Positions 5,311-31,184 of a stretch of DNA of 64,000 bases are shown here, in pieces. Position numbers and translations under genes: made by a program. Within the stretch, counting starts at the first letter, position 1. Every line of letters starts with the position of its first letter. This DNA is from Gemmatimonadota bacterium (GTDB lineage Bacteria; Gemmatimonadota; Gemmatimonadetes; Gemmatimonadales; Gemmatimonadaceae), in contig DAHUXM010000013.1 in the NCBI GenBank assembly GCA_027307165.1, positions 1 to 64,000 on the forward strand, in the 5' to 3' direction. The notes beneath the pieces are model-generated. The model was given only the letters and a program-made list of their open reading frames with translations, did no database searches and was not told the DNA's origin.

Positions 5311-5931
5311 TCAGTTTTCGCATCGGTGCCCTTGGGGCGATAGAAGGGGTTCCGGATTGTCATCCGTAGATGGCCCAATGATCTCGAGCCGATCTAACAG
5401 CGACTTGAGGCGCTGTTTACCTCCAACTGTGTTCTTCGAGTATCTCTCAGCGACCAGTGGTTCACCGCCCCATTGACGCACGGCGACGAGAAACATAGGC
5501 TTGGCCGCGAGATGCAAATCTTCGGCATCCTCGATGAAAGCCGCTTTCCATGCAGCGAGCGTACCCATCCTGCTCTCGCGGTCATCCGTAGGCATGGTTA
5601 GTTGCGCCTGCATGATCTGGTTGTATAGGGCCGCCAAGTACGTCCATTGGGATGAGAAGCGCGTGTAAAAAATGGCATAGATTCCGGCGAATATGGTTGC
5701 TAGCCATGGCAGGGTATCGACGACGTCTGCGAGCCCTTGCCGAAAGTCAAATACGGCGACTCTCCCGGTACTCAGCGTAGTCTTGAGCACGAACGCCGGT
5801 ATATAGACCCATGCTGTCAGACACACGGCACGCGCGGCGACGGCCGTTCCGCCATTTACCGTATGACGAGACCAGTTAAGGATCCACTCTCCCGCGAGAA
5901 AGCTTACAGCCCGGTCGACGAATCTTCCCAT
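5311..5931 (-). CDS. Membrane-anchored hypothetical protein
   Basis: A 206-aa protein with two hydrophobic segments at about residues 28-50 (TAVAARAVCLTAWVYIPAFVL) and 70-90 (VDTLPWLATIFAGIYAIFYTRF). A soluble C-terminal half of about 110 residues follows and is probably cytoplasmic. No family recognised. It lies in the accessory region between the phosphatase-like gene and a long gene-poor stretch before the restriction cassette. Confidence 0.6.
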   Translation of the reverse strand: MGRFVDRAVSFLAGEWILNWSRHTVNGGTAVAARAVCLTAWVYIPAFVLKTTLSTGRVAVFDFRQGLADVVDTLPWLATIFAGIYAIFYTRFSSQWTYLAALYNQIMQAQLTMPTDDRESRMGTLAAWKAAFIEDAEDLHLAAKPMFLVAVRQWGGEPLVAERYSKNTVGGKQRLKSLLDRLEIIGPSTDDNPEPLLSPQGHRCEN

Positions 5932-6760: not shown

Positions 6761-7993
6761 TTAGTCTCGGCAGGCCCCTCTTGTCTCTTCGATGAATGAG
6801 CCGAGCCTGATGAGCTCTGGCTGTATTTCCTTCGGATATTTCTCGATTAGCGGCTCAGGAACCACAAGCACGACATCGGATTCCTGCATTTCACGAAATT
6901 GAGCTGGAGAAACTCCCTCTTGCAGCGTTAGCAGGTGCTTGCGCCCGATGCGCTGAGCCTCGTTGAGGATCTGACGCCATCTATCCTTGCAGGTCGTCTT
7001 TGCCGCCAACATCCGTAACTTATCGGAAGACCATGAGCTATCATGATAACGCTCAATGGACGGAAAGATGAAGTCAGGCGTTCGCTTGTCCTCCGTTCGT
7101 TCGCCGTGTGCGTACGGCAATGCCTCTTCATCAAAGATGCGACTAGCGTGGAGCTCCAAGGATCTACCGGCGCGCGCCTTGCGTCGATTCGTCACCGCGT
7201 TAGCCAAGTCAACGAACAGATCCACCGACGCGAAACCTTCTGTTATTCGCGGCATGGTATAGAATTCTTCGACCGATCGAAACATCTCGTACTCGCACTT
7301 GCGCCGGTGAAGCAAGCGGAGATCAGGCGGCTTAGCACTAGACTCTGGTAATCGTCTCACAACTTCGGCGATTATCGCTTCCCCGCTGGGAAACTCCACT
7401 CGCCATGCTTCCGGAAGTTCTGCCTCTGAGAGAAAGCACGATTGGGTTCGGCGGTTAGTACCGATAAGCGGAAGCGTTGATCCGACAGGCGAGTAAATCA
7501 GTCCTGTTCCAGGCTCTACTGGCCCTACACGGTCAAGGACAAGGTCCTCTTCAGCTGGCGATCTGCAGAGCCATATGCGGCACGCGTCCGCATCTTCACC
7601 GTGCGTCGTGTGGTAAGCAAAAACGACCAATGCTCCTGTGGAGTCTGCAGCGACCAGCGGTACTTCGAGTCCGCCCCATCGGGTCATTCGAGCTTCGTCT
7701 CGACCGTCCTTTTGGCCAAGAAGCTTACTATTGTAGTAGACGACCCTTATCTCGCGCGAATATGTATGTGAATCGAGACTAGCGGTAATTACCGTGTCAG
7801 GGTTCTCTTCCGCGAGAGCGCGCACGGCGAGGGTTGGAAAGACGGATCGTACGAGATCCTTTGCAAGGTACGGTCCTCCTTGATGCGCCTTCGCATATGT
7901 ATCGTTAGCCGCGAGAAACTTGACAAACCAGATCCAGTCAGATCCCGTTACATGTTCAAACCAGTTTTCAAGCTCAGACAGGTGGTCAGTCAT
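6761..7993 (-). CDS. EcoRII-type type II restriction endonuclease
   Basis: A 410-aa protein, close to EcoRII (404 aa). Residues about 255-385 form the EcoRII C-terminal PD-(D/E)XK nuclease: RAGRSLELH (E280), the TPDFIFPS motif (D307) and AAKTTCKDRWR (K332). The N-terminal ~200 residues correspond to the effector-binding half of EcoRII, so two-site (type IIE) behaviour is expected. The start at 7993 is chosen because ATGACTGA overlaps the vsr stop by 8 nt, implying coupled translation. The companion Dcm-type methyltransferase suggests a CCWGG-like target; this is inferred from the family, not shown by sequence. Confidence 0.9.
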   Translation of the reverse strand: MTDHLSELENWFEHVTGSDWIWFVKFLAANDTYAKAHQGGPYLAKDLVRSVFPTLAVRALAEENPDTVITASLDSHTYSREIRVVYYNSKLLGQKDGRDEARMTRWGGLEVPLVAADSTGALVVFAYHTTHGEDADACRIWLCRSPAEEDLVLDRVGPVEPGTGLIYSPVGSTLPLIGTNRRTQSCFLSEAELPEAWRVEFPSGEAIIAEVVRRLPESSAKPPDLRLLHRRKCEYEMFRSVEEFYTMPRITEGFASVDLFVDLANAVTNRRKARAGRSLELHASRIFDEEALPYAHGERTEDKRTPDFIFPSIERYHDSSWSSDKLRMLAAKTTCKDRWRQILNEAQRIGRKHLLTLQEGVSPAQFREMQESDVVLVVPEPLIEKYPKEIQPELIRLGSFIEETRGACRD

Positions 7994-8408
7994 TCGTTGG
8001 AGTTTCTCGCTTAATTTGTCGGACGAGAGCTGCCAGACGTCGATCGTTAACTTGACACTCCCACAATGTAAACACACGCCATCCCTTGCGCCGTAGAACG
8101 CCGGCGTTGCGTCGATCCCGATCGGCGTTACCGGTTAGCTTCTTCAGCCAGAAGGAAGTGTTAGTCTTTGGCGTATACGCGAGGTTGCATCCGCGATGAC
8201 GGTGCCAGAAACAGCCATTCACGAAAACCACAGCACGCCATCGTCGAAGAACCAAGTCCGGCTTTCCGGGTAGCTCTTTCTTGTGAAGTGCGAAGCGCAG
8301 GCCTGCACGGTGCAGGTGCGAACGAACGACGAGTTCGGGTTTGGTATTTCGACCTCGAATTCCCGCCATCATGCGGCTTCGAGTGGGACGATCGACTACA
8401 TCTGTCAC
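7986..8408 (-). CDS. vsr: Very short patch repair endonuclease
   Basis: A 140-aa protein matching Vsr along its length: TRSRMMAGIRGRNTKPEL, PGKPDLVL with D51, NGCFWHRHRGC with H69 and zinc-site-type Cys/His residues, then GWRVFTLWEC. D51 and H69 coincide with catalytic positions of E. coli Vsr. Vsr nicks 5' to the T of T:G mismatches that arise when 5-methylcytosine deaminates, so it fits beside a Dcm-type methyltransferase. It starts with GTG at 8408, immediately next to the TAA of the methyltransferase gene, and overlaps the endonuclease start by 8 nt. Confidence 0.93.
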   Translation of the reverse strand: MTDVVDRPTRSRMMAGIRGRNTKPELVVRSHLHRAGLRFALHKKELPGKPDLVLRRWRAVVFVNGCFWHRHRGCNLAYTPKTNTSFWLKKLTGNADRDRRNAGVLRRKGWRVFTLWECQVNDRRLAALVRQIKRETPTND

Positions 8409-9701
8409 TTACCGAGCCATAGCCAGCTCCAGCCTGAGCTGCTCCCTCGCTGCGTATTGTCCGATGATAAAGGGGCGCATAGCACGTGCGACGGCTTCTA
8501 CAAGCGGGACCGCAACCGAGTTGCCGAACTGTCTGTATGCTTGGGTGTCTGATACTGGAATCTGGAATGATCGATTTGGTGTCTCGAACCCCATGAGACG
8601 AGCACACTCTCTCGGGGTGAGCCGCCTTGGATTACCACGAGAGCGTCGTATGAGGATCTCTGAACCATCCTTGAAGTAGCGGGCACTCAAGGTTCGTGCT
8701 ACATCCTCTGGACCGAACAGGCCGAATCCAAATCCGTTGCCTTTTGCGCGATGTTTCTCGGCATAATCCTGAAGATACTGCCAGAGGTGATCGCTAAGAG
8801 TGTATTTTCGAGCAACCTTGCCTCTTGCGTCTGTGTACGGTGGATCGGGTGGTTCTCTTCCGTCCTCTGGATGTAGTACAGAGCCCAGTCTTGGCCATGT
8901 CTCTTGGCGAGGTAACGGTACCATCGACCAGTCGAATGGCATGTCTTCCCGAAATCCGACGATAAAGATCCGCTCCCGGTGCTGCGGCACGAAACAGCGT
9001 GCGTCCAGAACTTTCGTCGTAACGAAATAGCCGAGCTTCTTCCGAAGCACAGTCATGATGGTTTTGAAGGTCTTTCCGCCATCATGACTCTGAAGATTCT
9101 TCACATTTTCTAGCAAAAATGCGCGCGGGCGGTGATGCCTGATGATGCGCTCGACCTCGAAGAATAACGTCCCTTGAGTATCGCAATCGAAGCCGTGCGG
9201 ACGGCCGAGTGAATTCTTCTTAGAAACACCAGCAATACTGAATGGCTGACATGGGAAACCGGCAAGCAGGACATCATGCGGAGGTATCCGATCAGATGCA
9301 ATCTGAACAATATCTCCGTGAATTAGATGCTCCCCAAAATTCGCCCTGTACGTCTGTTGGGAATACTTGTCCCATTCGGACGTGAAAATACAGCGTCCAC
9401 CAATCGCCTCGAACGCCATTCGTAGGCCGCCAATGCCGGCAAACAGATCGATGAACGTAAAGCCGGTAGAAGACTCTCGAACGATCTTGGGAGTACCACC
9501 CGGTAGACTACGCAGATACTCCATAACGCAATCGCGCGGCGGCTGGTCTCCACGCTCCCAGCGGGTTATCGTCTTTTTGTCATACCCTGTACGCTCGGCG
9601 AGGAGAGCTTGGGAAAGGCCGGTAGATTCACGGAGGTGTCGGAGTTCGGCAGCGGCCGGAGGTACAAGCCGCAAATTGCGGGTTTTGGCACGGGGGGACA
9701 T
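8409..9701 (-). CDS. dcm: DNA (cytosine-5) methyltransferase, EcoRII/Dcm type with N-terminal HTH
   Basis: A 430-aa protein. Residues about 20-53 form an XRE-type helix-turn-helix (LRESTGLSQALLAERTGYDKKTITRWERGD). The C5-methylase motifs follow: DLFAGIGG (85-92), the catalytic PCQ (150-152), ENVKNL (198-203), QHRERIFIVGF (240-250) and a C-terminal QFGNSVAVPL. This is the M.EcoRII/Dcm architecture, and relatives such as M.SsoII use the HTH to control their own operon. The ATG at 9701 is chosen because the longer frame (to 9803) runs into the divergent regulator gene. It heads the methylase-vsr-endonuclease operon. Confidence 0.92.
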   Translation of the reverse strand: MSPRAKTRNLRLVPPAAAELRHLRESTGLSQALLAERTGYDKKTITRWERGDQPPRDCVMEYLRSLPGGTPKIVRESSTGFTFIDLFAGIGGLRMAFEAIGGRCIFTSEWDKYSQQTYRANFGEHLIHGDIVQIASDRIPPHDVLLAGFPCQPFSIAGVSKKNSLGRPHGFDCDTQGTLFFEVERIIRHHRPRAFLLENVKNLQSHDGGKTFKTIMTVLRKKLGYFVTTKVLDARCFVPQHRERIFIVGFREDMPFDWSMVPLPRQETWPRLGSVLHPEDGREPPDPPYTDARGKVARKYTLSDHLWQYLQDYAEKHRAKGNGFGFGLFGPEDVARTLSARYFKDGSEILIRRSRGNPRRLTPRECARLMGFETPNRSFQIPVSDTQAYRQFGNSVAVPLVEAVARAMRPFIIGQYAAREQLRLELAMAR

Positions 9702-9724
9702 ATTGGGGACATGATGTCCCCAAT
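9702..9724. promoter_or_regulatory. Perfect 23-bp palindrome between methyltransferase and regulator
   Basis: Arms ATTGGGGACAT and ATGTCCCCAAT flank a single central G. The site starts one nt from the methyltransferase ATG and lies about 30 nt before the divergent XRE gene. It contains the GGACA/TGTCC half-sites recalled for operators bound by the HTH of M.SsoII-type methyltransferases. The likely ligand is the methylase HTH or the XRE protein; which one is inference. Confidence 0.7.
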
Positions 9725-9753
9725 CCTTTAATTTCGCAAGGGGCTGGCCGGAA

Positions 9754-10008
9754 ATGGTTTCTGATGGAATGTCCGCTATTGAGCCAATCGGCGCGAAAAT
9801 CAAGCGACTTCGCCAAGAAAGGAAAATTGTGCAGGACCGGCTGGCGATTGAGGCAGCAGTCGATCAAAGCAGCCTTTCCAAGTTTGAACGTGGGGTGGAT
9901 CAAGGCTTGGGCCCGGCGCCTCTCGGAAGGATTGCAAAAGTACTTGGCTTGACGATTGAGGAACTAACGGCTGGCACGGATTGGAGTGTCAATCGCCAAC
10001 GGAAGTAA
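9754..10008 (+). CDS. XRE-family regulator, probable controller (C) protein
   Basis: An 84-aa protein consisting almost wholly of an HTH_3 domain: IGAKIKRLRQERKIVQDRLA..VDQSSLSKFERGVD..PLGRIAKVLGLTIEEL. Size, family and divergent position next to the restriction operon fit a C protein that times endonuclease expression. An internal ATG at 9769 gives MSAIEPIG and is an equally plausible start. Unlike classical C genes, it is divergent from the endonuclease rather than directly upstream of it, and the methyltransferase also carries an HTH, so the system may have two regulators. Confidence 0.75.
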   Translation: MVSDGMSAIEPIGAKIKRLRQERKIVQDRLAIEAAVDQSSLSKFERGVDQGLGPAPLGRIAKVLGLTIEELTAGTDWSVNRQRK

Positions 10009-10761: not shown

Positions 10762-11466
10762 TCATAGTTCAGTTATTCTAATTTCGCGTTTTCCCGTTCG
10801 TGATTCACGCCATACCGTCACTCGGAACCGTGGCCGAGGCACTACTGGCGCGTTTGGCGAGACGGCGCGAGGGCGGAGCTCGTCACTAGGCATCGGCCCA
10901 GACTCGATTTCCTCTGGGAGATCCATCGGTAGGACAAGCTGTTGCGGATGTTGACCGACACTGATGATTGTAGCAGCCAGCTGCTCCATGAAATCGGGTG
11001 CTTCGCGCGCGTCGGATCCGACAATCTGTTCGGCTTCGATCATGGCTTCACCTATCGAGATTTCTTGGCGTTGCACCCGTCGAAATAGCCGCCTGATCCG
11101 ACCGAGATCTCCACTCCGTCGTCGTACACGAGGTGGCAAGTTAAGTCGTGTAAACGGTGCGGTGGCACGATGTGCTAGATAATCGCCAGCTCCCCGTACC
11201 TGCTTCGCAATGGTTTCCAAGCCCGAGATGAATGAACCGTAGTTGCTGATTCCTAGGTAGACGGCGCTTAGTGTGGCCGCAACCGTTGCAACAGCCGTTA
11301 CTGATCCCTCTTCCACCTCCAAGCTTACCGAGTAATCGGAGACGGACAACTCGCGCTGAAGGCGCGCGTCCCAATCGTCGAACACGCGCGTGGAGTACTG
11401 CTCAAACTCTTTACGTGGCAGTGTCGGGCCAAGTATAAAGATTTCAGTAGTGCCGAGATCGATCAT
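10762..11466 (-). CDS. Hypothetical protein with central hydrophobic segment
   Basis: A 234-aa protein. Residues about 50-90 (EEGSVTAVATVAATLSAVYLGISNYGSFISGLETI) form a glycine/alanine-rich hydrophobic segment that may be a membrane helix or helical hairpin. A basic region follows (RVRRRSGDLGRIRRLFRRVQRQE), then an acidic and a Pro-rich tail. I recall similar segments in hypothetical proteins from variable genome regions, but I know no function. It belongs to the accessory block with the restriction cassette. Confidence 0.55.
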   Translation of the reverse strand: MIDLGTTEIFILGPTLPRKEFEQYSTRVFDDWDARLQRELSVSDYSVSLEVEEGSVTAVATVAATLSAVYLGISNYGSFISGLETIAKQVRGAGDYLAHRATAPFTRLNLPPRVRRRSGDLGRIRRLFRRVQRQEISIGEAMIEAEQIVGSDAREAPDFMEQLAATIISVGQHPQQLVLPMDLPEEIESGPMPSDELRPRAVSPNAPVVPRPRFRVTVWRESRTGKREIRITEL

Positions 11467-27355: not shown

Positions 27356-27407
27356 AGTGCTCAAAGGGGAGAACGATTCAGGCGAATCGTTCTCCCCTTT
27401 GAGCACT
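27356..27407 (-). terminator. Perfect 24-bp stem hairpin downstream of pruA
   Basis: Arms at 27356-27379 and 27384-27407 are exact reverse complements around the loop AGGC. The hairpin starts about 20 nt beyond the pruA stop. It has no strong T-run on the minus strand, so it may be a terminator of the stem-only type or an RNA-stabilising element. Confidence 0.6.
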
Positions 27408-30398: not shown

Positions 30399-31184
30399 GT
30401 GTCGAATGAAGTACAGAAGGGGCGCGCCGGTAAAGCGCGCCCCTTCGCGCAGCAGTCACCACGCCATGTGATATGGGAGAACGTGAAGGGATTCGCGATT
30501 GTCATCGCGGTCTTTCTCGCGTTCCGCGCATTCATCGCAGAGGCTTACAGAATTCCTTCGGGCAGCATGATTCCAACGCTGCTCGTGGGGGATTGGTTGT
30601 TCGTCAACAAGATGACGTACGGCGCGCACATTCCCTTCACCGATAGCCGCCTGCCGGGTTATCGGACTCCCACAAAGGGAGACGTTGTGGTGTTTGTGTC
30701 GCCGTATCAGGCGGACAACGGCGACGATCCCACGCCGACACTCGTCAAGCGTCTCGTCGGAACCGGCGGCGATACACTCTACATGCGCCACGCGGTGCTG
30801 TACGTGAACGGCGTCGAGTCGCACCGGCCGGCGTCCGCAGTGGATCCGTCGCGCCAGGTGCCAGCACAGCCGGACTATCCCGACCCGGAGCACTTCGGCT
30901 GGCAGAAGCGATACGCGCTCATGTCGTCGCGCTTTGGCGCAGCGCCAGCGGAACCGACCCACGACAACTGGGGTCCAATCGTCGTGCCGGCCGACCATTA
31001 CTTCATGATGGGCGACAACCGGTATGATTCGAAGGACAGCCGGTACTGGGGTTTCGTCCCACGGGAGAATGTGCGCGGACGTCCGATGTTCGTGTACTAC
31101 TCCTACAACGCGGATGACTCGGACCGGCCGTTGCCGTTCATAACCGACATTCGCTGGTCACGACTGGGACATTGGATCAAGTAG
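30399..31184 (+). CDS. lepB: Signal peptidase I
   Basis: A 261-aa protein with one N-terminal membrane helix (FAIVIAVFLAFRAFI), the catalytic serine in PSGSMIPTL (Ser 56), the catalytic lysine in LVKRLVGTGGDTL (Lys 117) and the box GDNRYDSKDSRYWG. It cleaves signal peptides of exported proteins at the outer face of the inner membrane. The start is GTG at 30399; a second GTG at 30468 would remove 23 polar residues. A strong hairpin (30417-30445) lies within the first codons. Confidence 0.95.
   Translation: MSNEVQKGRAGKARPFAQQSPRHVIWENVKGFAIVIAVFLAFRAFIAEAYRIPSGSMIPTLLVGDWLFVNKMTYGAHIPFTDSRLPGYRTPTKGDVVVFVSPYQADNGDDPTPTLVKRLVGTGGDTLYMRHAVLYVNGVESHRPASAVDPSRQVPAQPDYPDPEHFGWQKRYALMSSRFGAAPAEPTHDNWGPIVVPADHYFMMGDNRYDSKDSRYWGFVPRENVRGRPMFVYYSYNADDSDRPLPFITDIRWSRLGHWIK
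30417..30445 (+). terminator. 11-bp hairpin at the 5' end of lepB
   Basis: AAGGGGCGCGC and GCGCGCCCCTT pair perfectly around a 7-nt loop. It sits 34 nt after the SWIB gene stop and inside the first codons of lepB from GTG 30399. It could terminate or attenuate SWIB transcription, or hint that lepB starts later. Confidence 0.4.

Follow-up and report, generated by a model that had tools for sequence, protein, structure and literature searches.

Organisation of the EcoRII-type cassette

The window, by which we mean the whole 64,000-nucleotide stretch analysed, contains a restriction-modification cassette whose genes and regulatory features are collected in Table 1. The methylase is a single 430-aa protein that carries the PF00145 domain and, at its N-terminus, an HTH domain (HTH_31/HTH_3). 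Its stop codon is directly followed by the start of vsr. The likely ATG of the endonuclease (7993) overlaps the end of vsr, and the open reading frame itself extends back to 8077. Because these genes abut or overlap, they suggest a single methylase-vsr-endonuclease operon with the methylase first. The overlap of the vsr stop with the likely endonuclease ATG (7986–7993) also suggests translational coupling within such an operon. The endonuclease possesses both the EcoRII N- and C-terminal domains (PF09217 and PF09019) and is accompanied by a Dcm-like methylase (TIGR00675), which identifies the cassette as an EcoRII-type restriction-modification system. The flanking open reading frames, at 10762–11466 (minus strand, 234 aa) and 5311–5931 (minus strand, 206 aa), gave no Pfam or PADLOC match.

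Table 1. Genes and regulatory features of the cassette, in positions of the window.
Feature	Position	Strand	Basis and remarks
EcoRII-type restriction endonuclease	6761–7993	−	PF09019 2.4e-62, PF09217 2e-34; 1na6 EcoRII match 3.5e-95
Vsr mismatch endonuclease	7986–8408	−	PF03852, TIGR00632
HTH + C5-cytosine DNA methylase (Dcm/EcoRII-like), proposed autorepressor	8409–9701	−	Pfam PF00145 1e-80, PF13560 1.9e-11; TIGR00675
Third half-site ATGTCCCC, over methylase start codon	9694–9701	−	With right outer arm TCCC 9695–9698; family alignment
23-bp perfect palindrome	9702–9724		Core GGACATGATGTCC 9707–9719, centre 9713; proposed inner operator
Predicted methylase −10, CATCAT (family consensus CATAAT)	9711–9716	−	Within palindrome; family alignment
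Possible −10 of divergent XRE gene, TTTAAT	9727–9732	+	Within methylase promoter spacer; tentative, from sequence
Predicted methylase −35, TTGCGA	9734–9739	−	17 bp from −10; TTG at this offset in 12/23 non-redundant homologs; inferred
XRE/controller-like HTH protein, 84 aa, divergent	9754–10008	+	PF12844 2.3e-07; 62% homolog beside same methylase in genome G143

A perfect palindrome adjoins the methylase start codon

The start codons of the methylase (9701, minus strand) and XRE (9754, plus strand) genes enclose a 52-bp gap. Our analysis confirmed that, as an earlier note on this DNA had claimed, the gap between the HTH-methylase and the divergent regulator holds a perfect 23-bp palindrome with GGACA/TGTCC half-sites; the methylase start codon immediately adjoins it. 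The palindrome reads ATTGGGGACAT-G-ATGTCCCCAAT, with arms complementary at 11/11 positions around a 1-nt spacer, and its core is the 13-bp GGACA-N3-TGTCC. The full sequence has a single match in the 64 kb, even when three mismatches are allowed, and none in shuffles. Palindromes with 11-bp arms and a 1-nt spacer are expected by chance 0.027 times per 64 kb, and about 2e-5 times in a 52-bp gap. Apart from this palindrome, the window has inverted repeats with perfect 11-bp arms and a spacer of at most 9 nt only at 27367–27400 and 30416–30450. The shorter pattern GGACANNNTGTCC is present once in the window against a shuffle mean of 0.08. Across 3.7 Mb it occupies 5 places compared with 2 for the reversed control pattern; such a count differs little from chance and gives no indication of a wider regulon.

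The predicted −10 element of the methylase falls inside the palindrome, and if this promoter assignment is right the methylase transcript would begin close to the ATG. No promoter was found by a sigma-70 scan with strict settings, and the predicted hexamers are weak. An extra copy of the half-site, GGGGACAT, is present in direct orientation at 9694–9701.

The core is part of a nested operator-promoter module

For homolog comparison we used 80 loci from GTDB genomes, as well as Gemmatimonadota genomes. The core was enriched upstream of homologous methylases, with 21 of 52 regions reaching p<=0.05 when compared with dinucleotide shuffles and a Fisher combined value of 4e-16, although over half of these regions, taken singly, fell short of significance for the GGACA core. 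Relatives keep the 13-bp core rather than all 23 bp, and the extension of the inner palindrome is absent from close relatives, for example at loci L086 and L106.

We aligned 31 sites on the core alone, so that the outer arms and TTG played no part in site choice. In relatives from several phyla the alignment showed a larger module at the methylase promoter, composed of a −35 TTG, GGGA-N8-GGACATAATGTCC-N8-TCCC, and a −10 CATAAT inside the palindrome. Relative to the centre, TTG is positioned at −26, GGGA at −18 to −15 and TCCC at +15 to +18, and a 17-bp spacer separates the −35 from the −10; the outer arms are mirror images about the core's own centre. Among 23 non-redundant loci, GGGR was found exactly at −18 in 13, YCCM at +15 in 17 and TTG at −26 in 12. 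The columns next to the outer arms and TTG were near random, in contrast to the sharply fixed offsets of these elements. In the window, the −35, the core and the right outer arm are all retained, but TTAA stands where the left outer arm GGGA would be expected.

The exact nested-dyad pattern was found at only three sites in 395 Gemmatimonadota genomes, all immediately before such methylases, compared with 0 for the control pattern. Viral contigs contained three further sites, two ahead of HTH-methylases that are accompanied by Vsr and EcoRII-C-like genes, and one within a phage gene. On a matrix built from the family, the window scored 32.1 against 8.2 for shuffles, being itself part of the training set, and locus L126, which was held out, reached 35.7, where the highest shuffle score was 9.1. 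Locus L125 was not counted as held out because its module is the same as that of the training locus L032.

This layout also bears on whether the inverted repeat might act as an intrinsic terminator or RNA hairpin and not as a DNA operator. A terminator scanner does report a plus-strand stem of 10 pairs with CCTTTAATTT after it; however, no plus-strand gene reads into the repeat and the T run is poor. Moreover, neither mRNA would include the whole repeat, since transcription of each divergent gene is predicted to start either at the repeat or downstream of it, and the conserved outer arms and −35 spacing suit an operator-promoter instead. On these grounds we rejected the terminator reading as highly improbable.

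Half-site variation follows the methylase HTH

The recognition-helix pattern [KR]T..RW is present in most of the methylases. Whether a half-site is of the TGCCA or the GGACA variant correlates with which residue begins HTH helix 2, a covariation that is confounded by phylogeny. Specifically, GCC-type half-sites such as TGCCA accompany 9 of the 14 non-redundant methylases without Q at this position and 0 of the 17 with Q (p=1e-4, uncorrected for relatedness). This covariation fits the methylase being the reader of the site. At L008, L009, L018 and L023, half-sites of the TGCCA/TGGCA type (e.g., TGCCATATTGGCA) replace GGACA/TGTCC upstream of the methylase, in some cases with TTCCC outer arms. 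At two other loci (L051:4464-4742 and L078:4429-4713), a separate small HTH-like open reading frame lies directly upstream, on the same strand, of a methylase lacking the N-terminal HTH; these are possibly a split form of the fused regulator.

Comparison with SsoII and EcoRII

The regulatory site of M.SsoII and M.Ecl18kI is AGGACAAATTGTCCT (PMC6100179, PMC3695355). In this system two methylase molecules occupy one site via their N-terminal domains, so that the methylase gene is repressed and the divergent endonuclease gene favoured (PMC6100179, PMC3695355). These enzymes share with the window's methylase the fusion of an HTH to an m5C methylase and a GGACA-N3-TGTCC with equal half-sites and spacing in their own promoter region; autorepression is a property of the known system. 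The proposal in the earlier note of an M.SsoII-type operator is supported by this match to the published half-sites and spacing and by the search that it had suggested upstream of homologous cassettes, where the 13-bp core proved conserved. The N-terminal HTH on an m5C methylase, the SsoII half-sites and spacing a few bases before the ATG, and the retention of the site with the methylase in homologous loci place it, as a probable member, with the SsoII/EcoRII-type autoregulatory operators.

The arrangement differs from that of SsoII. There the operator covers positions +7 to +21 of the methylase transcript, and it is the endonuclease gene that is divergent and stimulated (PMC6100179); in the window, by contrast, the core overlaps the predicted −10. 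Furthermore, the window's divergent gene encodes the XRE protein, and the endonuclease gene is co-directional, downstream of vsr in the methylase operon; the window thus lacks a divergent endonuclease gene stimulated by methylase binding, the strict SsoII-like feature. A small plasmid (L111) tested as a possible SsoII relative had neither an N-terminal HTH nor the site and was set aside.

Self-repression by M.EcoRII has been reported (cited in PMC3978073); going by that citation, there is already a known case of autorepression among EcoRII-type systems. In the EcoRII system of IncN plasmids (L116) we identified TGGGTCAAATGAGTGATACAGTTTCACCCATAAGACCCA upstream of the methylase, with TGGGTC...GACCCA around an inner GTGA...TCAC. 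This dyad (L116:2300-2340) is 39 bp long, nested and imperfect, and has the outer spacing of the Gemmatimonadota module: GGG/CCC lie 16 to 18 bp on each side of the centre, at the offsets of the module, and TGA/TCA occupy the inner positions. Its score on the family matrix (7.0) does not exceed that of shuffles (11.7), so the agreement is one of symmetry and register only. The two systems therefore resemble each other in the EcoRII-type endonuclease, the Dcm-like methylase, reported in the EcoRII case to be self-repressing, and the nested dyad upstream of the methylase. They differ in that the EcoRII methylase and endonuclease genes are convergent, the inner half-sites are GTGA/TCAC, and the annotation shows neither a Vsr gene nor a divergent XRE gene next to them.

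The XRE gene is a rare addition to the cassette

Only two genomes, out of 395 searched in the phylum and 179 in the family, contained a relative of the XRE protein: that of the window and G143. In both the gene is divergent from this methylase. With the profile used, a divergent HTH gene was likewise detected at 2 of 98 methylase loci, the same two. Being confined to these genomes and placed beside the methylase in each, the XRE gene is a rare, cassette-linked addition. Searches against PADLOC gave weak matches only (control protein, 4.7e-06; capH, 5.4e-07), viral contigs yielded no relatives, and plasmids yielded only HTH proteins at about 36–39%, mainly from Rhizobium. The AlphaFold model, obtained from two sequences, was poor (pLDDT 70, pTM 0.31).

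According to the earlier note, the methylase HTH and the XRE protein share one site. The two proteins would then compete for, or jointly bind, one dyad between overlapping divergent promoters, as a two-input switch over two divergent genes. If true, two regulators would act on an operon carrying both a methylase and an EcoRII-type endonuclease. The XRE gene is indeed divergent, 52 bp away and adjacent to this methylase in both genomes that have it, and the predicted promoters overlap on opposite strands. Kpn2I offers a precedent, since its divergent C and methylase genes have competing promoters (PMC6237814), and it too has a small HTH gene divergent from the methylase over a short intergenic region. 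However, in Kpn2I it is the C protein that governs the methylase promoter, whereas the conserved site in the window tracks a methylase with its own HTH. The core site is kept in cassettes without the XRE gene, the other XRE-bearing locus, L106 (GGACGTAATGTCC), lacks the extended 23-bp symmetry, and the XRE recognition helix (DQSSLSKFE) is without the [KR]T..RW pattern of most of the methylases. A second inverted repeat common to the two XRE loci was looked for and none was found. With the XRE gene limited to so few genomes, the shared site is unsupported, and we regard dual control as unlikely. Far less credible still is that the palindrome is the site of the XRE protein alone and the methylase HTH has some other role: the protein is encoded nearby and, at 84 aa, is controller-sized, but conservation of the core goes with the methylase and not with the XRE gene.

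The rarity of the XRE gene, and the conservation of the site in cassettes that lack this gene, point to the methylase HTH as the domain likely to bind. A second regulator is not needed to explain the palindrome, although the XRE protein may regulate the cassette.

Proposed autorepression and its implications

From the observed sequence, genes and cross-phylum conservation of the core together with promoter elements and a concentric outer GGGA/TCCC dyad, we infer binding, dimerisation, promoter use and repression at the methylase promoter. Based on this, we propose that the palindrome is very probably the operator of the cassette's own methylase, at which an HTH dimer would block RNA polymerase and cap transcription of the operon. 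A dimer of the N-terminal HTH would bind GGACA-N3-TGTCC, which includes the predicted methylase −10, and would exclude RNA polymerase from this promoter. Transcription of methylase, vsr and endonuclease would thus be capped when methylase is sufficient, and the same binding would probably also block the predicted XRE promoter, which overlaps that of the methylase. Since the endonuclease gene sits in the methylase operon, both enzymes should be held down by the feedback, in contrast to SsoII, unless the endonuclease gene has its own promoter.

The SsoII/EcoRII mode of methylase autorepression would thereby be extended to Gemmatimonadota. The operator-promoter module is compact, common to HTH-Dcm methylases across phyla, and so specific that such methylases can be located by DNA sequence alone. 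Its nested GGGA/TCCC outer dyad provides a testable prediction of what the flanks contact, and, with a methylase-vsr-endonuclease operon controlled by an autorepressor, one may ask how expression of the endonuclease is timed.
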